Below are positions 40,981 through 63,258 of a stretch of DNA of 64,000 nt, one piece after another (positions within the stretch are counted from its first letter, which is position 1; each line of letters begins with the position of its first letter). Origin of the DNA: Paralichthys olivaceus (taxonomy: Eukaryota; Chordata; Actinopteri; Pleuronectiformes; Paralichthyidae); the NCBI RefSeq assembly GCF_024713975.1, contig NC_091114.1, forward strand, positions 4,436,001-4,500,000, given 5' to 3'. The translations under genes were made by a program, and so were the position numbers. A model generated the notes under the pieces. That model did no database searches. It saw only the letters and a program-made list of their open reading frames with translations, and was not told the DNA's origin.

Positions 40981-43900
40981 TGCTGAATCAATGAGGACAC
41001 TTCACTGTATTTAATCTGGTGCCTCAGAGATTAACCTGGCTGTATTCAACTTGGAGTTTCAACAACAGGCTAAGTCACATCTATGACATTTCCAGTGTTT
41101 TAAAAAAACAACTACGAGAAACAGTTGCACGAGCACAATCATGTGAAAAAGAAGAGGGTGAAGCATCGATGACAACCGATTCAGATAACTCATAGCCGTA
41201 CTGATTTCCACCACAAGGTTGGGGTAATGTGCCACGAGCTCTTCTTTTTTTAAAGCTCTGGGCTTTTCGAAGGGGGTTTTCTGGGGAAATACTTTGAACA
41301 TTGTGATACTTCTAAACTCTGCGAGAGTGATTGTACTCACATTGCACTCCAGTTAGGCAAAATCTCCTGGTTCCAGGCCTGGGCGGCTGTGCCAATGCTC
41401 TCCTCAAGCTTACACCGATCCTCCAGCTGCTTCTTCCTCTTCTGAGCCTCCTTCAGCTCTACAGACAGGAGTGTGAGGAGAGGTGGTCAGATACAGTAAA
41501 GCTTTTTTTTCCCCCACTGGTCAAAAACCCACTAACACCCACTAACAAATAGCTATTGTCTGCAATGGGAATGGATACAATCGGCATTCACTCCAGGGTC
41601 AAATGGCTCTGCAGTAGATACAGGTTGTTATCGGCTCCGATTGCCAGTGATGGAAACAAGACACGCAAGTAAATGTGCTAATTTGGCAAGACAGTAAGGT
41701 GAGAGAGAACCTCAGTCAACTTAGTGTTTGTGGCGTTGAATATGATGCATCAGAAAGACAGAGATAAGAGACGCCGAGCTTTGGAGAACGGTAGAGGACA
41801 AATTAAATAGCAGCTTCCTGTTATCAGGTTCCTGTTGCTTTCTTGGGGAATTCCGGTCCTCCAGAGATGACCTCTGACCCTAGAAAAAGACAGCAAGTGA
41901 ACCTTGATTCTTTTGTCACATGTCCTCACCTCTCTTCTTGGCCTGGGCCACCATCTCCTCATACTGCTGTCTGTGTTTCTGAGCCTCCTCAGCTGGCTTG
42001 GCAGGCAGGTTCCTGTATCACACATACATGCATTTAAGTTAATGGGTTAGCAGGGATGAGTTTCTCTGAGGTTAACTTGCATTATTCATGTCCGACTGCT
42101 TCTGTGGCATGAAATAGAGGAGAATGTACACAGGAACAGGCCAACCGCACTTCACTGCATGTCGTTCCCCTGGTGGTGGGAGATGCTGTCAGTTGGGGCT
42201 TAGATGTCTGTTTAACATTTATGTCGATGAAGTCACATCTTATGTCAGGTATTTGACCCTTTTTATTGTGTCCTGTAATATCTGACAAACCAGTCATATT
42301 AGAACACTGGGTATAAAAGATCATTCCTGACTTTTTCACTTTTTCAGAAATTTCACTTTACAGTCTAATGCAAATTAAATATCTATAATCTCAGACAACT
42401 GGGCAAACTGTGCTGATGATGATGATGATGATTGTGTCATATATGCATGAGTGACAGCCCGAGAAAAACAACTAAATGGACCTTGAGGTGGTGATTTGTT
42501 CATTAGAAACCAGTTTAAAAAACAAGCTTTTTTTATAATTTTACAACATGCTCAAATAAATGTAGGTGATCATAAAGGTATTTTAATATTACCTAATATT
42601 AGTTAATATTATAGTAGTTTTTACTGAAATGTTATCAACTTCACTAATTATGTTGCATCAGTAGAGGTTCATATGTTTTCTGCTTCAGCATGTTCAATCT
42701 CATACCTGTGTCTTCACATTTGGTTCCTTTACTTCTTTTGTCTTACTCTATTCTACAGATACAGATAGATGATGCACTATATTTCTACTTAATCACCAAA
42801 TACAGTAGGTGCACTTCTCTAAATGGTTGCTACCAGCAGAGGGTGACACTGACAATGGAAAAAGATAAGGAAGCTTGCATGTAGCGAAAAACCTGAGCAG
42901 CAGCTGAACTCTGTTTTTCAAGCCGTGGTGTTAAAATCAACTTCCTGTAAACACAGAAAACCAGGCTGAATTACACTATTGTTTTTATTCAGCATGTGGT
43001 GGAGCAGTGCCACCTAATGTAAGATGAAGCCCAGTGAGGCCCAGCATAGGTCCGTCGCTTTTTATGTAAACAAAATGAAAACTCAACACAACACACAAAG
43101 CGGGGTAATGGAGCCAGGCGGAGGGAGGGCCATTAAACTTTCAGCAACGCTTCTCTTTTACTGTTCGTGAGACGAGCGGAGGAAGCGCTGAGAGCTGGAA
43201 TGACACTAAACAGGGTAATGATCCAGCAGAGGAAGGAGGGCTGATAAAGAAGGAATGATGGGGGAGGATGGAGACACAGCAGCCTTATTTTCTGAAGAGC
43301 AAACCCCACTGGCGGTGAGAGAGAATGAAAAATGTGGGTTAGTCCAACAACCCAAGGATTGACAGTGTGTGTGGCTGTTTACATACGCAGGTCTGTCCTC
43401 CAGTATAAGTGCAGTAGTGGAGAGTGGCTCAAAGTCCAGGTTTTTCCTCACACTCTGCCTGGGGGACGTTGGGTTGCCGGTTCCAGCTCTGCCACTCTTC
43501 GTTTCATATTCCTGCAACAAAAACAGATGATGAAGACAATTACAGCTAAAATGAACCTTAATTACAACAGTGTAACAGGGAAAACAACTGCCGAGGTCAG
43601 TTTTATTCGGAATTTCTTTGGACCCTGTTCAGACCTGGTATTAACATCCATCCTGAGTGAGCGGATCACAAGTCCTCCGCGTCCTCAATGTGTGCTTAGA
43701 TCCAATCACAGAAACCACATGCGGTGGTGGTCTGGGACGCATTTTTCCACATTCTTTCAGCTGTGTGAACGCAAATAAGTCCTGGGCCACACGGGGGACA
43801 ACCTACTCAGCTGACGTCCTCTGACCTTCTCAAGTTTAACAATTACCCGGCCATATTTTTGAGATTCTCTGTTCCTATATTGGATTTTGTGGTCACGTCA

Positions 43901-49900: not shown

Positions 49901-52900
49901 AATCAGCATCCGGCTCCTGTCCACAGCCAGCATGAAACACAGAGCCACGGCGAGCTGAAAGAGGCTATTGTGTGAAATCTGAGCCATCCTCCTCTGCTGC
50001 CTCTCTTTCACGCTCCGACTACAGATGCCCTCTGATTCTGCTAGAAGAGGACAGAGACAGTGGGTTCCCCACGTTCGCCCGCTTGTCCTCACAGTGTTTA
50101 AGTGCTCACTCACCATGAACGCTGCGGTTCCTTACAGGCGGCCAGTCCTCCGGTGGGGGTTTGATTCCAAAAACCCTAGCCTAGCGTCATTGCTGCCCCC
50201 TGAGGGCTCACTCCTGGCAACCGGACACCCAGGAGGTGCAAAAGGAGGCCAGAGGGACAGTCAAGCTGCCGACAGAGGGACACACCCCGCATTGGAAAGG
50301 ATGTGGTAGCAGCATAACACCCCTCTTCTCTCTCTCCCTACTCACCCCTCTCCCTCTGAGCTGTGACGCTACACTGACCGGCTCTGCATCAGGTCTGTCA
50401 ATGCTGCTGCTGCTGTGTGTCAGTAAATCAGCACTGCCGTGTGTTATTAGTAACGGTCTCTCTGCTGAAGGTGCTCTGTGCTCTGCTGCACCCAGGCATC
50501 CTAATCAACCCCAGAGTAACAGATCAGGTTTCAGCCACTCAGCTCACTGCTTTCCTTATCCAGTCAGGACCCATCGAGCAGCTTTAGTGCCAAAACATGT
50601 GAATCTACCAGCTGTGCCTTGAGATTTGTTTCACTTGTTCCCCGCTCACCAACTTCTGACTACTACTGACTATTGCTTTTTCAGAATACTATATTTATTG
50701 TTGGCTATTGGGATGTGACGGATACAATTTAAACTGATCTTCTCTGTATATAAATGCAATGCTTGCCCAACAGCACTCTTGTACTGCGTACTGAAGATGA
50801 ACTGTTTTCACAAGATGTTTTTTAAATATTCAGTATTCTGGGAAAGACAGGAACTTTCTAGAACATTTGTTTGCTTAGTAGGATGTTGCGACATGCAAGA
50901 ATTTCTAAATCTCGTTTGACACAGTAACAACCACACCTGATCCAAGTTGCCCAGAAGATATTTAACCTTGATCTAAAATGCCAAAATAACCTGAACAGAG
51001 AGGTGTGTTGATTGTTGTGTACCACTTGTTCAGATACAACAATTCGTCATATTAACGCACAGACCTGTGACAGTAAAACAAGAGTTGACCTGATTAGATC
51101 GAGCAGAATTTAAAGCAGAGTAAAGTCTCAGGTCTGAGGATTGCAGCCAGAAAAAAAACTCTAATATAAAGGATTTCTTATGCGTTGACCCCAAATCACT
51201 AAATCTACGCTAAGGAGCACTGAAGCTGTTCTGGAGGACCTTACATAGACACATAATGTTGGTGTTCCCATTTGTCACCTGTTTAACTTTAACCACCTCA
51301 GATGTGATGATGAATAAAATGCCATTTGCTCAATTTATAGTAGAAAACATTAGCAATTACCAGTTGCAGCAAATTTATATGCAACCATCTTCCTCCCGAA
51401 GACTCTCTTTTCTTAAAGTCAACACAGGATTTGAAGCTGGGGTTGTTAATCTGTGTTAATGTGACGGATACAATTTTCTGAAAAAAATCCTTACCAGCCC
51501 TCCCTTCGAATGATATTCAAATTTAACTACTGGAGAATATTGTTCAATTTCAATTCAGCCTTACTTCCAAATTGCAGTAACAGTAGTTCTTCTGCCACAC
51601 AATGCGATTGAGAGGCTCAGCCTACTACAGACCAGTTTCTTTACCTTGGCAGCAATTCACTGCAGCCACACATTGCACTGAGGCCTTCATATACAGGGGA
51701 GTGCCGAGTGCTTGAAGTCACAGATAAGTGGTTTAAATTAGAATGGTAAACCTGATTCGTAAAGTTGCTCTAAAAGGAAAAAAAAGGGGAGAAGTTGCTG
51801 GTAGAAATAGAACTATAGGTCCAGCAGTAGCTGAACAATAACCCTGGCAAATAAAGCACTACACGGACAGAGTTTAATGACCCTCCTTTGAACAGTCACT
51901 GGCAACACAAAAGCTTGAAAGCTAATCCTTGTTAACCGATTCCTGAGGTCCAATATAAGGTTACAACCACAGAGGAGATTGACTGAGGATATTAAACCCG
52001 TGGGTGTGTATAGTGTGTGTGCGCATATTCATTTGCTTAGAGAGACAACATTTAAATCCTGGATTTCCGACACCAAACCAATACAACAAGACAGTCGACA
52101 TGGATAAGCCTGTTATCAACAGAACAATTTGCATATGGATACTGGTCGGAAACCTTTCAGTTCATTAGTGATTACACAGGGGGCGTCATCAATGGGCACA
52201 GACCAAGATCCCTGTGGATGCAAGAGGACTGAAATCTAACGTGTGATGTAAACTACACTTTAACATTACAAGTGTAGTTGTTTGAGCTTCTTTTGGGTAA
52301 AACAAACGTCAAGTTATTTTCATACTGTAACAATAGAAGATTCAAACTCTCCACATCAGCGGGTGCCGTCTTAGTTGTTAACGAAAAACGCTTCAACAGC
52401 GCTCCTGTCTCAGATTTTGCATCAAACCCGTCTCAATTTAGATTGCAGTTACAGTTATTTAAACCACACTTGTGACAGGTTACATGGCTAATAAGTGGTG
52501 CATTAAAGCACATTACAGGAATTTCAACCCCAGTTTCAACAGCACAAAGAGAGGGCTGCTTCCCTCATGTCAGCCAAAATGGCAGCGCAATTACAGGCTT
52601 CTACAGGTTCTAATTACAGACTGCCATCTTGTTCTTTGGTTTATTTTGCCTGTAGGAAACGACCATGCTTTTTAATTAGGCCAGAGACCCTTTCCTGTTT
52701 GCTCTCTGTAAGGCACTGAGAACTTCTGTGTCCAGTCACTTGCTGGCTATCGAATCAAGTGCTAAGAACGACCTTGACATTTTGAATTACAGCTGCATGT
52801 TTAGAGAGAAAGGTAACAGTTAGTGTGATGTATATAAATAGTTCCAATTTTGGTTGTTGTGTGCTTGAGGATAATTATCTTATTATTTTGTTTAAAAATC

Positions 52901-55900
52901 TTTTTTCATTCTATCTTTTTTGATATTAATCTACACTTCCGTAGTTTTGAGAAAGCAAAACACAAATGCACTCATTACATAATCGTCATTTTTTATGTTC
53001 AGTCTGTAAGTGGAGATATGATGGGTATTTCTGCACACTGCAGTCAAACTACATAAAAGAGCAGAAGCTTAAAAGACAAGACATCTCAAAAAAGTTTCAG
53101 TATTTCTACATTCAGGTTTTACAGGTGTGGTAATCCAATACTTTCTTTACATGGTTTTATTTTCCTCAGCACTGAGTATATGAAGAATTTAAGAAATCTA
53201 ATTTATGCCAACCCTCAATGTTGTGTGAAGTAAGAACCAGGCTCCCTTTGTCATGAAGACATTAACTGGTGGTAGATTATGCTGGAGAAATCGGATTGAA
53301 AATGCTTAACCTGTTTTTTCTTGCATGAAACTTGGACTGGGTAAGTATTACTGACACATCAGAGAGATGTGGTCGAGTATGTTCACACTGGATTACAAAA
53401 AACAGTGGTTTGAGACAGTACTTATCAATTTGGGGCGAGCTGCTTCAAAGATGCATGACATAAATACTATAACCATTAGAATTTGCTTATTTATCCTGCC
53501 CCAGGTTGAGGATTATATAATTCTCTCTATATTATTATATCCTTTTTGATATATTAATGCACTAATTTCCAATTTCTTCCAGTTACCACTGCCTTTGTGT
53601 CTATGTAAACATAGTCAACAAGAAAAATAAAAGAATAAAAATCTTCTACCTTTTGTATTTTCTTAGGATCCTTGATGGGGCCTTCCCGTGGGGGGACTTT
53701 CCCGAAAAGCTTCCACCCTGGATCCCTCTGCTCCACTGGCCGACTGTCCTTAACCCTCCTGGCAAACAGGCTCCTGAGAGAGATGCAGGATGGAGAGCGG
53801 GAATTATATTATAAATATAATAATAATATTAATTATGTGTCACACTGTCAGCGTGCAACCCCAATGATAGTGGCTCCCATTCCCTATCAAACACAGTCAT
53901 TCAAAGTGTGGTCAAATCTGAAATGCCTGCATGTCTATAACAAAGTTTTGTGCTTTTGTCAGTAAATGCACAATACCTTTGAACATTTTTGCTCATCTGC
54001 TCTACTACAAACACCTCAAAAGAAAACCAAGAAACCAATGAGACAGCAGCAATGCCTTTAAATTCACATCTATATTATTTTGACTTTTTCTTTTTTACTT
54101 GAGAAAAAGGTTGAGCAGTTAATGGTAGCTGTTACGGTTATTTTTTGGTAGGTTAACCAAAGCCTCAAATCAACTAATCAGAAAACAATCGATTGATTGG
54201 AAAAATGTGGGGACTAATTGAAAAAAACAAATAGATTAATACAAATGTATAAAAAGATATGTTGCACACTAATATGTAACAATTATTTTACCATATTTGC
54301 TGCTTTCATTGAAGAACTTCACTTCCACTTCAATTTATCATGACACAGAGTGCTCCGCTGGAAGAGAGCGCAATCTGTATGGATTGTTTATCTTCCATCA
54401 CCTGGTGTTTAAATACCACATGCAAAGCTGCTGAAAAGCCTTCCCACCATTCAGCGTGTTGTTCCTTTCATTATTCTGTCAGAGCGGTGTTATCACAGAG
54501 CTGTCTGTCTGCGGGGGCTTTAATTAAAAGCCTGAAAAAAGCCTAGCACAAAAAAAAGACATGAATGAACTGGTCCGACAAAAAGCCTCTTCTGACCGAG
54601 CAAGGTGGCATAACAGCAATCAAAGAGTCCACATGCCGCTGTTTGCCTCTGATAAATCTCATCAAGAGCAATTCACCGTGGCAACTGCCTTGTGTAATGA
54701 TTATGCGTTGACACCACTTGGACTCAACTGCGTGGACCTCAGTGATGTGGAAAGGAGGTGTAAACCCACTAAGTTGTTTCAGGTGGCTAAATCTGACCTT
54801 TGACCTGCTGACTGCAGCACAGTATGACCCGAGGGCTCTACGCTGCCTCCGGGGGAGTGATGACAGGACAGCATGCTGACAGACGCTGAGTAGCTGCAGC
54901 TACGTCCGCTGATAGCTGACCGTGTCTGCTGCTGGCTCCTGTGTTTACTGTGGACAGAGCTGTCACCAAGACACGTGGCCATCTGTGCTCGCTGATAACT
55001 CACTGAATCCTGATTGATCGTTTCTCAAATCTGCCCGAGCAACAAAACGTGGGTGTGAGCGCACAGTTTGAGGACAAGCAGAGTGCAGGCTTTTGAGCGA
55101 AAGCATTGCAAACTGGAAGACCACGCTCTTGAATAATAATATGAAAAAAAACAAGAAAAAAACAAATGCTACACTGCAATTGCAGCTGAAGAAATACTTA
55201 AGGTCATTTAGGATCATAAGAAAACAAATGGTTAGAAAACAATGAAGAATGGGTTAGTGTCTAAAATTAGTCCATGTACTTTACTCAAGTGATAATAAGA
55301 TTAAAATAAGTTATACATCTGTAAAATGCACTTGTTTATCACAGCTTTGCCTTTATGAGTTGTATAGTTTACAAGTGTGCAAGACAATAAAATGATACAT
55401 TCATCCTTAGGCCTGCTGAAATGTGCAGCACTGCCTCCCTGATGCTTCACCTTGTAGTAAAAGAAACATGAGCCACATTAAAACAGGCTACTGGTTATAT
55501 AGGAATATCAAAACACTATGTAGGCATGGTTCTGACCATGAGAAGCTGATTAAGCAATACCAGATAAAAGGTTCTTTCCAGTGTGACTGGCCAAAGATAA
55601 ACACTCTTAGCAGTTATTCACAGGCTGCTACAGTATCTTAAGTAACCAACACTCCGTAGAGTGAAATTTCAATTTCTCTTTTCTTGGAGAGAAAACAGAA
55701 AAGGTGCCGGAACATAAGTTGTCAGACTTATAGAGCAAGACTATGGACAGCTGTCATTTCAATATATCTGCAGTTATCAAAGTTGCTGAACAGAAAGGAA
55801 GGACACACCTGCTGACGTGAAAGAGTTAAAAAACACTGAAATCTAATCTAAAGAGAGGTGATGATACAAAGAGGACATTGACCAATAATAACCTATGTAC

Positions 55901-57495
55901 CGACAAAAAAAGAATTCCTAACACTAAGGCTCACAGACTACATTTTATCTGAGCTATGGAAACACCTCTCAGGGCCTTCATCAGCATGTAGACACATGTT
56001 TTTGTTGTGATCAATTATCGTATGTCAGATGTTCCACATTTAGGTCACGTGATGACAAACCAGACATCGCCATTACAATAGAGCACACTCCATCTGCCAA
56101 CAAAGACCAGGAGACGCAGCTGAAAGGTTGAAAAAAAAGCCTGAGCGCTGTTTGAAGATGTTTTCTGGTCAAACTACTAATTCCAATATCAATTAAGAAG
56201 TTTTAAATTCAAAATGTGAATTATTCAAGAAATGTACAACAAAGCATGTGTACAATTGTAACTTGGAAAGCAATGGATTGATTATGAACTCATATCTCAG
56301 TTCATCATACACCACAGCACAAACCTAAGGTGGAAAAAGTAAACTGCAACCAAGAATGGAGCTATGGGGAGTGTTTGAACTTTAGTAACCTCGTAAGCCA
56401 CCATAAAACAATGCTGCACAGAATAAAGTGCAGAGGCCAAATGAGTTCTGCCTTTAAAAAGGAGAACCTGAAGTCTTGGAATAATATATACGACCAATTT
56501 TTTTGTACAGTTAAACAAAACAATATCTGCTCTGTTTTCAGACCTGCCAACAAACAAATGTTCACAAAGCACGAGCATTATTTGCATTCTGTCCAAACCA
56601 AATGTGCTTCAACGTGACAGCTGAATAGCTGCGGGAATGGTCGGCTGCTCAAGTGGAACGGCTAGAAAAAAAAAAAAGACTGGCAGGGGATGCTTGTTTG
56701 TAATGTTGAGTTCAAGCCAAGGCTTTGCAGTGGACTGATTTGTAGCGAAGTCTCTAAAGAATTTTGGGGGATTTCACAGCACTTATGTTCGGTCTTGAAG
56801 TGTGCAAATAAGGTGATAAGAGGTCCCAGTGGTTGGTATGGTTCACTTGACAATGAAGATGCCTCGTACACAAATACCGAGCAAGCTGGTTCAAGAAGGA
56901 AAGCAGAGTACACCAAGTTATTTTCCACACATCATAAAAGACACGAATGAACTGGAGCTGCTCCAAGCGTGTTTACAACAGTCACCCAAGTAGAAAGTAA
57001 ATCCAAGGTACAGTGTGTATTTAGTCAACAAGAAACCGGCAGTCCAGCACAAAAGCCTCAGTATTCAACTGCTCGCCAAATCTCTGCCGCTTGCTCTCGT
57101 ACATTTTTTAAAATTAGATAGGGAAGAAACTAAAATGTGCTGTGTACAAATGTACAGGCTGAAAAAACATCAATCAATGAACAAACTTAAATTCAGACAA
57201 AAAAGCAAAATGTGTTTCTATCCTACCTGTCGATGTAAAGAAGTGATGGGGTTGCCATCCTGCTCCTTCACCACAAAACACAATGAGCCCCAAAAAATCA
57301 AAACAACACAGAGAAAGAAGCAGCGAGTGCCTGAGCTTTGAAAGACGGAATGGGTGAACACAGGAGAGCAACACCTCCTGACTAAGTCAAAGCTCCCCCT
57401 CAGTTCAGACTCATAGCTTCCACCCAGAGTCTAACACAAGTCCCACACAGCCACCGGACTCAGGCAGACTGAGACTGTGAAGAAACTGCTGCTCA

Positions 57496-57529
<34 letters not shown>

Positions 57530-60500
57530 ACCCCCTCCTGGGTGTGAGACGCAGGAATCTGAAGGGCACTCAGGGAATGAGTAACTTCTCCATGTGAGCG
57601 AGGAGAGATAACAGAGAGAGAGATAACTATACAGACTGAGAGGGAGGTGGGGAGTCAGAGGAAGCACTTCACACGTGATACATCACACTGAATCTCAAAT
57701 CAATTACAGTAAACAGTAGTTTAAGTCTGCCGGAACAGCCAAGGACACTGTGAGCATAATGCAATTTAATTTAACAGTCATCACTGTTAGTGGCCACAAG
57801 GGGATCTTATACGTCCTGTCACATATCAGCATCACTAACAACCAAGACTCTTCATTATCAAACACTGATGATGGGAAGTACATTTCTGGTATTTACCAGT
57901 GTTGGGAAGGTAACGTATCAAATATTCATTACACATTACTCTCTAAAAATAAAAATAAAATGAGTCAACTAGAATGGCACTCAGTAGAGCGCCTGCCATC
58001 CACGAGGCACAAGAGTCGCATTCGATTAAGTCAAGCTGCACTAAATAGGTAATCTCCAAAATATGCCTGAATTGTACATGAACGTGATATTTCAAGAGTG
58101 CCTTGAAGAAATGTCTTCAAATTTATATTCACATAAATAGAACACATTGAATTTTGGTGGTCAACGGTAAAAAAAAGTCAAAATCATGTGACCGTACTGA
58201 TCGTTTTTATATTTTAGAAATGCCCAAAGGAAATTTCATCACATCTAGCACAACCATTCAATGTTAATCAAAGGTCAAAGTGGCTTCACAAAGCACATTT
58301 TTTGGCTTTTGGATGCGATATCTCCGAAAGGCTTTGAGGGAATTCTTTCACATTTGGCACAAACATTCACTTGAACTTCATTTTGGCAGTCAGGCCAAAG
58401 GTCAAAGGTCACGGCGGCCTCACAAAGCATGTTAATGTTCTTTAAATTCATTCAGCTTGAGGGAATGTCTTCAAATTTGGCACAAACGTTCACTTGGACT
58501 CAGAGATAAACTTTCATTAGTGTTCATCCTCTGAGCACCATGAACTCTGTACCAAATATAATTACAAACCATCCAATAGCTGTTGAGATTGTTGTGTCTG
58601 ACTGGCAGCCCAACACTGCCAGCCATACAGCCAATGCTAAAGCTGTTAATGTGGCTAAAAATTAACAGGATAATCTAACCTGTGTCTGTTATATCAATTT
58701 AAAAATCAATGCAATCATCATTTAATGTATCAGTCTTAGCCACAGCATCATTACAGGTCATTATCAAGCCCTGCCATAATTACAGTGTTATGGTTTTTTT
58801 TTTTTACAACTTGCAGTTTATTAGTTTATTACTTGTTGCTGTAATGCTAAAATAACATTGTTTAATTGCAGTCATACCCAAAACACACACACACACACAC
58901 ACACACATCATAAAACAACACAGCAGGTGTGAGACTCACTGCTAAGGAAAGAATTTTCAACAAGCAGCATGGTGCAAAATAGAAAATTCAATTAAATAAA
59001 AAATCCAGGACGTCAACAGAAAGTGTAGCGTGGCAAATTACTGAGAGGAAATGACGGGCCTTTCTGATTAGGTTTGTGATGGTTCCATGTGAATGAGGCG
59101 AGAGAGTGTGAAAACTACTGAGCAAAATGCATTACTACTGTATGTAAATTCATAGTGGAGGAAAGGTCTGTGGGTGAATGAAAATGCAGATGATGGATCT
59201 TGTTTGATCAGGAACAACAGGCTGAACACGTCCCTGGTCGTTTTCAACTCTTGAAGAGAATCTAAGAATGAATCCACAAGGTTACCACATCCCCAAACAT
59301 ACAGTCACAGGATTGGGAAGTGACACAATCAACATGGCAGCATTCTTTTCATAACCTGGGATATCGTGTGGACCCATAGGGCCACCTTTAAGGGCCAAAT
59401 TCTGATGTTCTACTTTTTTTTCACAGCTAAGATAGTGCTAATCAGGAACTTTCCTTTCCTCAACAGCATAAATAACATTTGTTCCCAAGACCAGACTTTA
59501 TTATTAGATGTGCCCATGTGTTGGTTTCTGTCATTAATCTCACTGTCCTTGATTTGGGACAACTTTGTACCAGAAAGCCAGTTCCCTTAGATAATAATGG
59601 GGTTGCTTTGGCGGGTCATGGAGATACAGCAGGTTGTCCACAAACCAGAGGGTCACTGGTTCGATCCCTGTATCCCTGTTACCCGACCTCGGTGAATGGC
59701 AAAACTACACTGTAATATGCAGTTTATGTCTATACTGTAAAGCACTTTGAGTGGCCATCAAGCCTTGAAAAGCTCTATTTAAATACAATATCTTAAATCC
59801 TAATTGTACAACTGCTGTAACATGTTGAGCTGAGGATAAGGGCATGTTCTGGAGAAGCTGTAATAAGCAAGAGAGGAGGGAGTGGACAGGAAGTCTTGGC
59901 TAAGCGAGTTTGTATAACAACATTGAGCAATGTTTGCTTCTGTAAGCCTACTATAAGGTCTTCAGCAAAAAGCCTAATGAGAGGAAGTGGAGAACGCATA
60001 ATCATCCAGCTCAGGCTGCCTACATTTGACTGTGTAGACCATAGAATTAATGACAGTGACATATTCAATAGTACGGATTGAATCAATATAAAACAAGGAT
60101 GGAAATACATTTCAAAATATAGTTGGATTTTAAAGACTTATGCTGAGTCATATGTGAACTCACCTGTTGAATAAGCTTGCAAGAGGTCCCAGTTTATTTT
60201 TCCTGACATCATCTTCCTGCTGCAGGACACCTGACCCCGGGTAGGGTCGCACAGGACTCCATAAGTCTCTGGAGTCCCCTGGAGAGGACGACAGCGTGAC
60301 ATCTGAGAAGTGAGCGGTGCCGCTGTCATCCGTCTCCAAGGTGACAATGGCACTGGAGTCAGACGTGACGGTGAAATCCAAGATGTCTTCGTTGGAGACC
60401 GACAGTTCGGTGCTCATGCTGGACACGCTGCACACAGAGATGTCATCGACACCCATACCCGTGGTGGTTGATAATCTGAGGGTGGGGCTGAAGAGGCGGA

Positions 60501-63258
60501 TAGAGTCATATCCGCTGCGAGGAAAGGTGGAGGATTTGCGGATGGTGTTGTCGATAGAGTGATCATCATTCAAAGGTAAAGTGGCGGGGGAATCATGACT
60601 GGCATCCAGGATGAGGCCTGCATCGCCTGGGCGTTGGTGGCCATGAAGGATGGGCTCAGGAGGGTTTATCTCGAGAGTGGGTATACCTGAGTCCTGGGAA
60701 GTCAAACTGTGGCTGTCCTGGTCCAGGTCTGAGTAGCTTTTCTGGGGGCTGCTGTAGTAGGTGGGGGTAGAGGAGCAGGATGGCTTGTAACTGGGCAGGA
60801 CGGGTATGCTGTGTGGGGTCGTGCTGGCTTCATGACAGTGATGGTTGGTGTGATCGTGGGGGTCAGGGGCAGTCTGATCTTTGACCACAGAGCCATTCTC
60901 CGCTATGGCTTCTCCAGACACACCTTCAAAAGAACATGACTGAATTAGTTTGATTTGAAAAAAATGTACAGATCCGGGATGTTTCTAAATCAGGGGCCAT
61001 AAAAAAGGGGCCAATTTTACTGAATAAAATGTTTTAATCCACAGTAAAACTAATACAAATGAATCTCCAACAATTTAGATGATTGATTTAATTGTTGTGA
61101 TTTGTGACCAAAATGCAAATGTGAGGATTTGCTGCTTTTCTCATCAGAATAAATTTAATATTGTGAGATTTTTTTCTAAACGAGTGATCTAAACACGTCG
61201 CCTTCGGCTCTACTGCATTTTAGCACGGATAATTACTAATCATGAAGAGCAGGCCCAGGGGATTCACCCTCTGGCAGTTTCTTTGAGTGATTGCGGATTT
61301 GTTTATTAATATTGTCTGTGCAACAGAAGCAAAATACAAAGTGACACTTGAACAATTGCATTATAATAAGGGCTCCTCTGGGTTACATTTTAGAATAAAA
61401 CCCTTCGAAGTTTCCATGTATCTCGTGCTTATCTAGTGCAATAAATGCACAATCAGATCACCACAAACTGATTATAATTAGTAAGTAATACATGGGTGGG
61501 AAAATGTGGTTAACAGAGGCCAACTCAATTCTGCTCCAGTGACACATTTAGTCTATAAACAAACCAATCATCAGTCTACAAATTGACAAAATATGATATT
61601 ATTAAAAGGCTTCTGCCAATTAAACAGGGTATTTCGAGCCATATGAGTGTAGGAGCCTTGTGAGATGAAAACTAATCCCACAGTAACCAGGCTGTAACTG
61701 GAGTCTGCTGTGTAACATGAACAGGGCTCCAGCAGGGCTACATCATGCTTCAACACCAGCTGGGAAGCTAAGCTTAAGCTAGTGTGTCTATAAGCTCTCG
61801 GGCTGCATTAATTCGACTCCTGACTCTCAGGGACAGACACATTCCCACCCCATCAGTTACACACTTCATATCCATTTGGCAGAGCTCGACAACACTCAGG
61901 TTGGAGCTAGCTGTGTGTGCTGTGGAGGGGTTCTGTTTTTAGACAAAACAAGGGGGAAATAAGGGCTTTGAAAAAACACACACTATTGTTGTTGCTAAGA
62001 ACTTCAGTGGAGTTTGCAGTAACAGTTTATCTAAGCTCTGCACCGGGAGGTTGTTTCAACACAGAAGCAAAAAGAAGCTGGAGAGCTACAAATCATTGGA
62101 TCATGCTTTCTCCATGAGGTGTAACCGTCTCATATTCTTCATCATTTAAATTCTCTCAAAGATGATGCCGTAACCGAGAGCACAGTAGAAAAACCCTATC
62201 ACAGGGTCTCGTGTATTCTTACTGGTTAACGCACAAAGCCAGATTCTTGCCCAAGCTCTAAACCCTGACCTGGTCATGTGAGCCTGACAGACTTTGTCCC
62301 AAAACGCGGCAACAGGTTCTTCCTGTGCCACAGGGGGAAATAACGAACAAGAGCTCACCAATGAATTACAGGCTGTTTACGTACTCATTGTTATTATACT
62401 CACACTGTATTTATTTAAAAATGAGATACTGTACCACTCATGAAGCTTTATTCATTAAATAGTGCATGAAGTGCGTGAGGGCCACACCAAACCCAGGCAT
62501 GTTTTAAGCTGCTGCTCTTATTGTCTGCTTTGTTGAGCCACCTATTTGAGTGCACACACAATGTTGGTCTGTGAATCACAACAACACGTGATGAAAGGCT
62601 TCCCAGGGAAGACACAGTACTATTCCATTTTGAAAAGTGGCCCTTCTTCAGCCAAAGACCAGACTGAATGGAGTAACATCACAGGGAACATTAAAAGAAA
62701 GAGGTTTTCAAATTTAAGAGGCTGTTCTTCAGTGCAGCTGCAGTTCACACGTCTATTTTCGACACTCAGATTCACTTTCTGGCCCAACAGAGGATGCAAC
62801 CTCACATTTTAACTAGTGTGTCACATGTATGTTGAAGTTTAGAGCCTGTCACAAAACATCACGGTTAAAGTGTGGAGTTAAACGTTTACATCTTCTGCTC
62901 CACTAAAAGACTGGTTTCAAATGATTCACTATCTGATCTTTTAGTGGCTGAGGTATAAGATTATCCCTCAGCCTCTGGTAAATGAAAAGTACGCCGAATT
63001 CGACACTGATAATAAATCAGTCCTAAATGCTAAGTGTTAGAGTTGATCAACAGAGAGAATTGAGAATATTTAAGGCTGAGTTTATGTTTATATATTCTTT
63101 CAATGGAGTTTGGTGCGATGTTAGCAGGAGGAGAACAGCACGTGGATCAGGATGTGAGTTTGCGTGTTTCTTGCGTGTGCTGCGTGACGAACATTCATCC
63201 GTCACACTGACTCACCGCAGCGGCTGTCCCTCAGCTCCTGGCCGGTCGTGTTCGCCAT
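34669..63258 (-). CDS. tbc1d14: TBC1 domain family member 14 (14 coding exons)
   Basis: TBC-domain protein that in mammals binds RAB11, sits on recycling endosomes and restrains starvation-induced autophagy, partly via TRAPP complexes. Fourteen exons from 63258 to 34669 give 717 aa (human 693) with all phases closing. The N-terminal half is disordered and Ser-rich with conserved islands: DSGIPTLEI (92-100), [13 protein letters not shown] (143-155), SNEDILD (191-197), GWKLFGK (287-293) and the [20 protein letters not shown] block in exon 4. A coiled coil (about 355-400) precedes the TBC domain (about 431-640). The domain has the arginine finger IKLDISR with Arg499 and the glutamine finger YVQG with Gln535, so it looks catalytically competent. 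Upstream the leader has two uORFs, and an alternative first exon lies in intron 2. Confidence 0.96.
34816..35074 (-). CDS. tbc1d14: tbc1d14 coding exon 13
   Basis: Residues 613-699; [19 protein letters not shown] through [20 protein letters not shown], the end of the TBC domain. Donor GTGGGG. Confidence 0.96.
35238..35400 (+). mobile_element. Interspersed repeat, copy 3
   Basis: TATAATAATCAGTTCCC, AACATGCCAGATATTTTTC, ATCATTCTCTGAGA and TCTCACATTGATAAAG follow the order of the first half of the copy at 2945-3100. An A-rich stretch separates it from GGAGCTAACATTCTGCACC. Confidence 0.55.
36041..36150 (-). CDS. tbc1d14: tbc1d14 coding exon 12
   Basis: Residues 577-612 plus two bases of Trp613; [20 protein letters not shown] matches the TBC core. 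Acceptor CCGCAG, donor GTGAGT. Confidence 0.96.
36541..36610. repeat. (GT)35 microsatellite at a splice site
   Basis: Seventy bases of uninterrupted GT on the plus strand, (CA)35 on the tbc1d14 sense strand, directly next to the donor hexamer of exon 11 (36616-36611). The longest simple repeat in the window. Confidence 0.97.
36617..36745 (-). CDS. tbc1d14: tbc1d14 coding exon 11 (glutamine finger)
   Basis: Residues 534-576, 43 whole codons; [20 protein letters not shown] holds the glutamine finger Gln535. The exon is frame-neutral. Its acceptor side has a short TG repeat (TCTGTGTGTGTGTAG) and its donor GTCAGT runs straight into a (CA)35 tract on the transcribed sense strand. Confidence 0.96.
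37741..37812 (-). CDS. tbc1d14: tbc1d14 coding exon 10
   Basis: Residues 510-533, 24 whole codons ([20 protein letters not shown] then DVGY). Donor GTAAGT; splits the YVQ motif from exon 11. Confidence 0.96.
37989..38077 (-). CDS. tbc1d14: tbc1d14 coding exon 9 (arginine finger)
   Basis: Residues 480-509; [20 protein letters not shown] contains the IxxDxxR motif with Arg499. Donor GTCAGT. Confidence 0.96.
38190..38267 (-). CDS. tbc1d14: tbc1d14 coding exon 8
   Basis: Residues 454-479 plus one base of Asp480; [13 protein letters not shown] then a variable linker, shorter than in human. Acceptor CTGCAG, donor GTAGAG. Confidence 0.93.
39490..39553 (+). repeat. 14-bp minisatellite
   Basis: Four to five units of TGTGGGTGCATGTA with small changes (ACGTGGGTGCATGT, GTGTGGGTGCATGT), in tbc1d14 intron 7. 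Confidence 0.85.
39689..39795 (-). CDS. tbc1d14: tbc1d14 coding exon 7
   Basis: Residues 418-453 plus one base of Glu454; [20 protein letters not shown] starts the TBC domain. Donor GTAAGT. Confidence 0.96.
40951..40975. repeat. (AAT)n microsatellite
   Basis: Eight AAT units followed by A-rich sequence, in tbc1d14 intron 6. Confidence 0.9.
41341..41458 (-). CDS. tbc1d14: tbc1d14 coding exon 6
   Basis: Residues 379-417 plus two bases of Met418; [20 protein letters not shown], end of the coiled coil. Acceptor CTGTAG, donor GTGAGT. Confidence 0.95.
41930..42012 (-). CDS. tbc1d14: tbc1d14 coding exon 5
   Basis: Residues 351-378 plus one base of Glu379; [20 protein letters not shown], start of the coiled coil. 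Donor GTGAGG. Confidence 0.95.
43387..43511 (-). CDS. tbc1d14: tbc1d14 coding exon 4
   Basis: Residues 310-350 plus two bases of Ala351; holds the highly conserved [20 protein letters not shown]. Acceptor TTGTTGCAG, donor GTATGT. Confidence 0.96.
43618..44187. mobile_element. Non-autonomous DNA transposon with long inverted termini
   Basis: The left arm GACCCTGTTCAGACCTGG then TTAACATCCATCCTGAGTGA then CGGATCACAAG is matched by the inverse complement of the right arm ending at 44187 (CCTTGTTTAGACCTGG, TTAACATCCGTCCTGAGAGA, CCGATCACAAG). The arms are about 55 bp with high identity. The roughly 570-bp interior has no transposase and includes a CT tract. A degraded relative lies at 20614. Confidence 0.8.
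48340..48475 (+). mobile_element. Interspersed repeat, copy 4
   Basis: GATCTTCTCTGACCCACAATG, TAGTTTTTGTGTAATCCTGC and ACAAACAAACGAACATAACC match the 3' half of the 2945-3280 copy. Confidence 0.6.
53650..53773 (-). CDS. tbc1d14: tbc1d14 coding exon 3
   Basis: Residues 268-309, with [19 protein letters not shown] matching the human GWKLFGKAPLRE region. Acceptor TCTCTCAG, donor GTAGAA. Confidence 0.95.
57227..57258 (-). CDS. tbc1d14: Candidate alternative first coding exon of tbc1d14
   Basis: In intron 2, GCAGGATGG (strong Kozak context, A at -3, G at +4) opens ten codons, [10 protein letters not shown], plus AG, followed by a GTAGGA donor at 57226. The phase (2) is exactly what exon 3 needs: AG joins G to give Arg, then SLFARRV. 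The product would be 460 aa, lacking the Ser-rich N-terminal half but keeping the coiled coil and TBC domain. I recall that mammalian TBC1D14 has a shorter isoform with its own N-terminus, which supports the idea. No transcript evidence is available here. Confidence 0.5.
57500..57535. repeat. Poly-C/poly-G tract (C30, A, C5)
   Basis: Thirty consecutive C on the plus strand, then A and five C; G-rich on the tbc1d14 sense strand, about 240 bp upstream of the candidate alternative ATG. Could form G-quadruplex structure; length in an assembly is often unreliable. Confidence 0.95.
58075..58530 (+). repeat. Degenerate tandem repeat, about 120-bp units
   Basis: Unit markers AATGTCTTCAAATTT (58110), AATTTCATCACATCT (58231), AATTCTTTCACATTT (58341) and AATGTCTTCAAATTT (58464) are 121, 110 and 123 bp apart. 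Each is followed by a GGCACAAACRTTCACTTG-like phrase and a CAAAGGTCA word. A common teleost interspersed tandem repeat type. Confidence 0.75.
58883..58908. repeat. (CA)n microsatellite
   Basis: About 13 CA units in tbc1d14 intron 2. Confidence 0.9.
59604..59790 (+). mobile_element. tRNA-derived SINE
   Basis: The B-box GGTTCGATCCC lies near 59660, preceded by CACAAACCAGAGGGTCACT. The tail AAAGCACTTTGAGTGGCCAT and AAAGCTCTATTTAAATACAA is the well-known end of a teleost SINE family. No folded tRNA is possible. Confidence 0.75.
60164..60923 (-). CDS. tbc1d14: tbc1d14 coding exon 2
   Basis: Residues 15-267 plus two bases of Arg268; a large exon with the conserved motifs [22 protein letters not shown] and [20 protein letters not shown]. 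The exon opens GT-GTG directly after AAG, so the apparent start at 60921 is a GTG within the exon and not an initiator. Confidence 0.95.
60924..63215 (-). other. tbc1d14: tbc1d14 intron 1 (about 2.3 kb)
   Basis: AT-rich, with no recognised gene or repeat family. Confidence 0.5.
63216..63258 (-). CDS. tbc1d14: tbc1d14 coding exon 1
   Basis: Residues 1-14 ([14 protein letters not shown]) plus one base of Gly15; donor GTGAGT. The N-terminus does not resemble the human start, so the identity of this exon rests on its strong donor, matching phase, CpG-island setting and position. Confidence 0.75.

Follow-up and report, generated by a model that had tools for sequence, protein, structure and literature searches.

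A candidate alternative start in intron 2 of a fish tbc1d14 gene and its possible origin by chance

The gene tbc1d14 helps to control cell recycling (autophagy), and its product is a RabGAP. We take human TBC1D14 to comprise a canonical protein of 693 aa and a RefSeq isoform b of 413 aa. Residues 120-223 of TBC1D14 are reported to bind TRAPP and residues 224-330 to be involved in the interaction with ULK1 (PMC4741301); in the same study, a construct of residues 224-669 left the tested TRAPP subunits unbound, was membrane associated and did not fragment the Golgi (PMC4741301). Two mouse Tbc1d14 records, NP_001106833 and NP_598671, number one TBC-domain residue as 433 and 413, respectively (PMC3009607). 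The literature match for TBC1D14 with an alternative promoter concerns DNA methylation. Among the matches listed, the titles and opening lines of the abstracts made no mention of a short TBC1D14 isoform starting from a first exon of its own, and papers naming the human isoform b accessions that we tried were not found.

The window, that is, the whole stretch of 64,000 nucleotides analysed here, is part of contig C22 in a genome of 588 Mb and 25 contigs. Its right part carries tbc1d14 on the minus strand, modelled with 14 exons that encode a canonical product of 717 aa. The closest solved structure to this product is 2qq8 (PDB, TBC1D14), with an E value of 4.4e-179 compared with 3.1e-24 for the runner-up; this match and the continuous long coding model identify the gene as TBC1D14. 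Open frames at about 17.9-28 kb of the window resemble, by their translations, grpel1, tada2b and ccdc96, the neighbours of TBC1D14 on human 4p16. The parts of tbc1d14 that concern us are as follows.

63216..63258, minus strand: exon 1, coding part (14 residues and G), in CpG-rich surroundings
60164..60923, minus strand: exon 2, the Ser-rich N-terminal half, ending in phase 2
53774..60163, minus strand: intron 2, 6390 nt, containing the candidate
57227..57258, minus strand: candidate alternative first coding segment (10 residues and AG), with the donor GTAGGA at 57226-57221
53650..53773, minus strand: exon 3, the target of the predicted 460-aa form
43387..43511, minus strand: exon 4 (EYETKSG...), starting in phase 0

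From 57258 to 57227 the minus strand reads ATGGCAACCCCATCACTTCTTTACATCGACAG and then GTAGGA, giving the codons ATG GCA ACC CCA TCA CTT CTT TAC ATC GAC and AG. The ATG lies in a strong Kozak context (A at -3, G at +4), with a TGA in frame four codons 5' of it, and within 300 bases upstream there is a single further ATG, at 57414, whose frame closes at a stop after three additional codons. Because the junction between exon 2 (ending at 60164) and exon 3 (starting at 53773) is AG/G, phase 2 is the correct phase for the candidate, which has its own ATG, an open frame and a donor that suits exon 3, as an alternative first exon would. Spliced to 53773, the segment yields exactly 460 aa, in which Pfam RabGAP-TBC spans residues 178-400 and IKLDISR and GYVQG, which we take to be the two catalytic-finger motifs, are both present. 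The first-pass annotation had described a strong-Kozak ATG, ten codons, AG, a GTAGGA donor and a phase-2 fit to exon 3, all of which are borne out by the minus-strand sequence, and the assembled model with its Pfam match (178-400) agrees with the 460-aa product retaining the TBC domain and both finger motifs that it had predicted. The donor scores 8.44 and beats 3 of the 10 real tbc1d14 donors scored out of 13 (the motif of exon 10 was not found, and exons 11 and 13 were not entered); all splice scores given here come from consensus tables that are not fish-trained. These features of the candidate, from its sequence and phase to the length of its product and its scores, are direct observations.

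Within the 6390 nt of intron 2, the candidate is the only ATG that combines a strong Kozak context, an open frame, phase 2 and a donor of at least 8.44. The expected number of this class in intron 2 is 0.08-0.10 in first-order Markov sequence (two sets of 500 runs), and 13 were counted in 340 kb of other sequence from the same genome, or 0.24 per 6390 nt; this own-genome set covers both strands of 17 of the 25 loci, includes genes and leaves out the short, gene-centred loci L001-L008, and its count kept junction stop codons, which the Markov and intron scan dropped. When the context is relaxed to at least adequate Kozak, the expectation per intron 2 rises to 0.60-0.65 (Markov) and 0.83 (own genome), and 73 cases were counted in the 340 kb regardless of Kozak. 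No phase-2 candidate of any Kozak context was found in antisense intron 2, in a 10147-nt slice of intron 3 or in intron 1, compared with about 4 expected at the own-genome rate, so the figure of 0.24 may overstate chance locally. Given the chance rate, and the more so given that the candidate was picked post hoc, its sequence pattern is weakly suggestive, not remarkable. The degenerate coding pattern of the candidate occurs a single time in the whole genome, at this site, and was not found in the genome contigs and viral contigs of other organisms, a collection that holds no relatives of this fish. With regard to a mobile-element origin, positions 57000-57750 matched only themselves in a DNA comparison with the window and 25 loci of this genome.

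The CpG observed/expected ratio at 57250-57750 is 0.21, at the 8th percentile of the window, with no CpG island, and the ratio at the canonical tbc1d14 start is 0.95, at the 99th percentile; many promoters lack CpG islands. A scan for seven promoter motifs in the 500 bases upstream of the candidate gave one match (CACGTG at 57677), but it discriminates little, as the canonical start gave two matches and the intron 3 site discussed below gave one. GC content near the candidate is 0.52 compared with about 0.38 around it, and is raised partly by a G run, which appears on the forward strand as follows.

57500..57535: run of 36 C, reading as G on the minus strand, some 240 bases 5' of the candidate ATG

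This run may itself be a sequencing or structure effect. A further GC-rich block of intron 2, at 54500-55250 (GC up to 0.51), holds no start candidate of the scanned class. The earlier suggestion of an ancient internal promoter therefore finds no support here, there being no CpG island, one of the seven motifs and no counterpart in tbc1d12.

A search of the same genome with exons 3-4 returned the window, tbc1d12 on contig C14 and an unconvincing match on contig C4 (E 5.25). The query found no second tbc1d14 in this genome, although a diverged copy could be missed, as exon 3 on C14 itself scored only E 0.3. Like tbc1d14, tbc1d12 (locus L009) has a phase-2 AG/G junction before SLF(A/S)R; unlike tbc1d14, it has a 3-kb intron without a similar start, the ATG-donor candidates listed there being dissimilar, and DNA comparison of 57000-57750 with its locus gave no match. 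On this comparison the candidate is not a feature common to TBC1D12 and TBC1D14. A paralogue of the age of tbc1d12 is nevertheless a poor guide to other fishes.

Chance is, narrowly, the most likely reading of these data: we give close to an even probability to the candidate being an ATG in strong context that happens to be followed by a short open frame and a fair donor, and not a used exon. Transcripts that begin in the CpG-rich region at 63.2-63.7 kb would then splice 60164 straight to 53773 and encode 717 aa, the candidate remaining unused, and the case would matter only in cautioning that, going by the measured background, roughly one in four introns of this length can be expected to hold such a candidate. 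That the segment is instead a real alternative first exon, with an internal start upstream of 57258 and an mRNA splicing 57227 to 53773, is somewhat less likely. The strong Kozak context, the right phase, a donor score (8.44) inside the range seen for real tbc1d14 donors and the position of the candidate as the only one of its class in intron 2 argue for it, as does the resemblance of the 460-aa form to the TBC1D14 224-669 construct, if the numbering agrees (PMC4741301). The chance rate of 0.08-0.24 and the lack of a CpG island and of a tbc1d12 counterpart argue the other way. Moreover, the observation alone does not imply a first exon, since an internal exon could equally contain these bases.

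57227..57265, minus strand: cassette-exon reading of the candidate bases, 39 nt and in frame, with an acceptor of 5.13

Placed between exons 2 and 3, this cassette (57265-57227) would insert 12 residues in frame and give a long form of 730 aa, in which the ATG is merely a codon. The cassette is free of stops, a multiple of 3 in length and in phase 2 at either end, and just before the candidate ATG, in its frame, stand three AGs at three-base spacing. The acceptor at 57265 (5.13) comes near that of exon 5 (5.25), the lowest of the 9 real tbc1d14 acceptors scored out of 13, but it falls below all 9 (5.25-11.74); other in-frame cassette starts, at 57259 (2.22) and 57262 (-1.93), are weaker, and four higher-scoring AGs upstream (57558, 57537, 57468 and 57330; 5.49-8.14) would produce frame-breaking exons of 332, 311, 242 and 104 nt. 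The difference of 20 between the mouse records was considered as proof of a cassette and set aside, because the cited passage does not locate it and an upstream start would give an equal shift (PMC3009607). No paper on tbc1d14 and a microexon was found in the literature search, and overall we regard a cassette exon here as improbable.

A separate question, compatible with the chance, first-exon and cassette readings alike, is whether a conserved short form begins in intron 3. In the 693-aa human sequence, the counterpart of exon 3 runs from residue 242 and that of exon 4 from residue 282, leaving 452 and 412 residues, respectively. On these lengths, 413 aa equals M plus the 412 residues from exon 4, so a junction at exon 3 does not fit. 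The parallel that the first-pass annotation had drawn with a short mammalian isoform thus holds for the TBC-keeping anatomy and is doubtful for the exon 3 junction, the human lengths pointing to exon 4; homology of the candidate to that isoform is likewise doubtful. A candidate for a start that joins exon 4 can be pointed to in this gene.

50114..50116, minus strand: ATG abutting a GTGAGT donor that scores 10.33, within a GC-rich part of intron 3

Spliced to exon 4, the ATG at 50116 is predicted to give M followed by EYETKSG..., 409 aa in all. It was noticed with the human length in mind, and is therefore not a blind prediction. A conserved short form beginning at 50116 is a lead that we rate as less likely than not. 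Its 409 aa would match a human isoform b of 413 aa (M and 412 residues from exon 4). It is the only phase-0 ATG-to-donor candidate in intron 3 with a donor of at least 8.44, GC content around it reaches 0.59 (50101-50400), and an ATG abutting a donor this good was found once in the 340 kb of own-genome sequence, corresponding to 0.03 expected in 10137 nt. The Markov expectation is less favourable (0.15, P 0.14), and the wider class (phase 0, any exon length, at least adequate Kozak, donor of at least 8.43) has an expectation of 1.8 per 10137 nt from the own-genome set. Furthermore, its Kozak context is merely adequate, its CpG observed/expected ratio is ordinary and ATGGT does not occur in the tbc1d12 intron stretch L009:4801-6130. 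It is unlikely, in our estimation, that the intron 2 start (460 aa) and the intron 3 start (409 aa) are both used, with promoter choice setting the autophagy partners of this RabGAP; the 460-aa form would then keep most of the ULK1-binding region, and the 409-aa form would lose its exon 3 part.

Should the intron 2 candidate prove to be a used exon in spite of the favoured chance reading, the consequences would lie in the partners of the protein, alternative first exons being in themselves commonplace. Lacking the N-terminal half, the 460-aa form is predicted not to bind TRAPP; it would keep the coiled-coil and the TBC domain, and could work at recycling endosomes independently of TRAPP. The cell would thereby have a naturally occurring TBC1D14 devoid of the TRAPP-binding region, similar to a truncation that has been examined in cultured systems, which would make TRAPP-dependent and TRAPP-independent roles in autophagy separable in vivo.

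Compared with known forms, the candidate product would resemble the mammalian short isoform in lacking the N-terminal half and keeping the TBC domain. The two would differ in their junctions: mammalian isoform b, by its length, would join a single residue of its own to exon 4, whereas the candidate would join ten residues and a split Arg to exon 3. The mouse Tbc1d14 records likewise vary naturally ahead of a residue in the TBC domain, but the number of that residue differs by only 20 between them, so neither is a TBC-only form (PMC3009607). The 224-669 construct is engineered and not a natural isoform (PMC4741301); like the predicted 460-aa form, provided that its numbering agrees with that of the 693-aa sequence, it combines most of residues 224-330 with the TBC domain and dispenses with residues 120-223 (PMC4741301).
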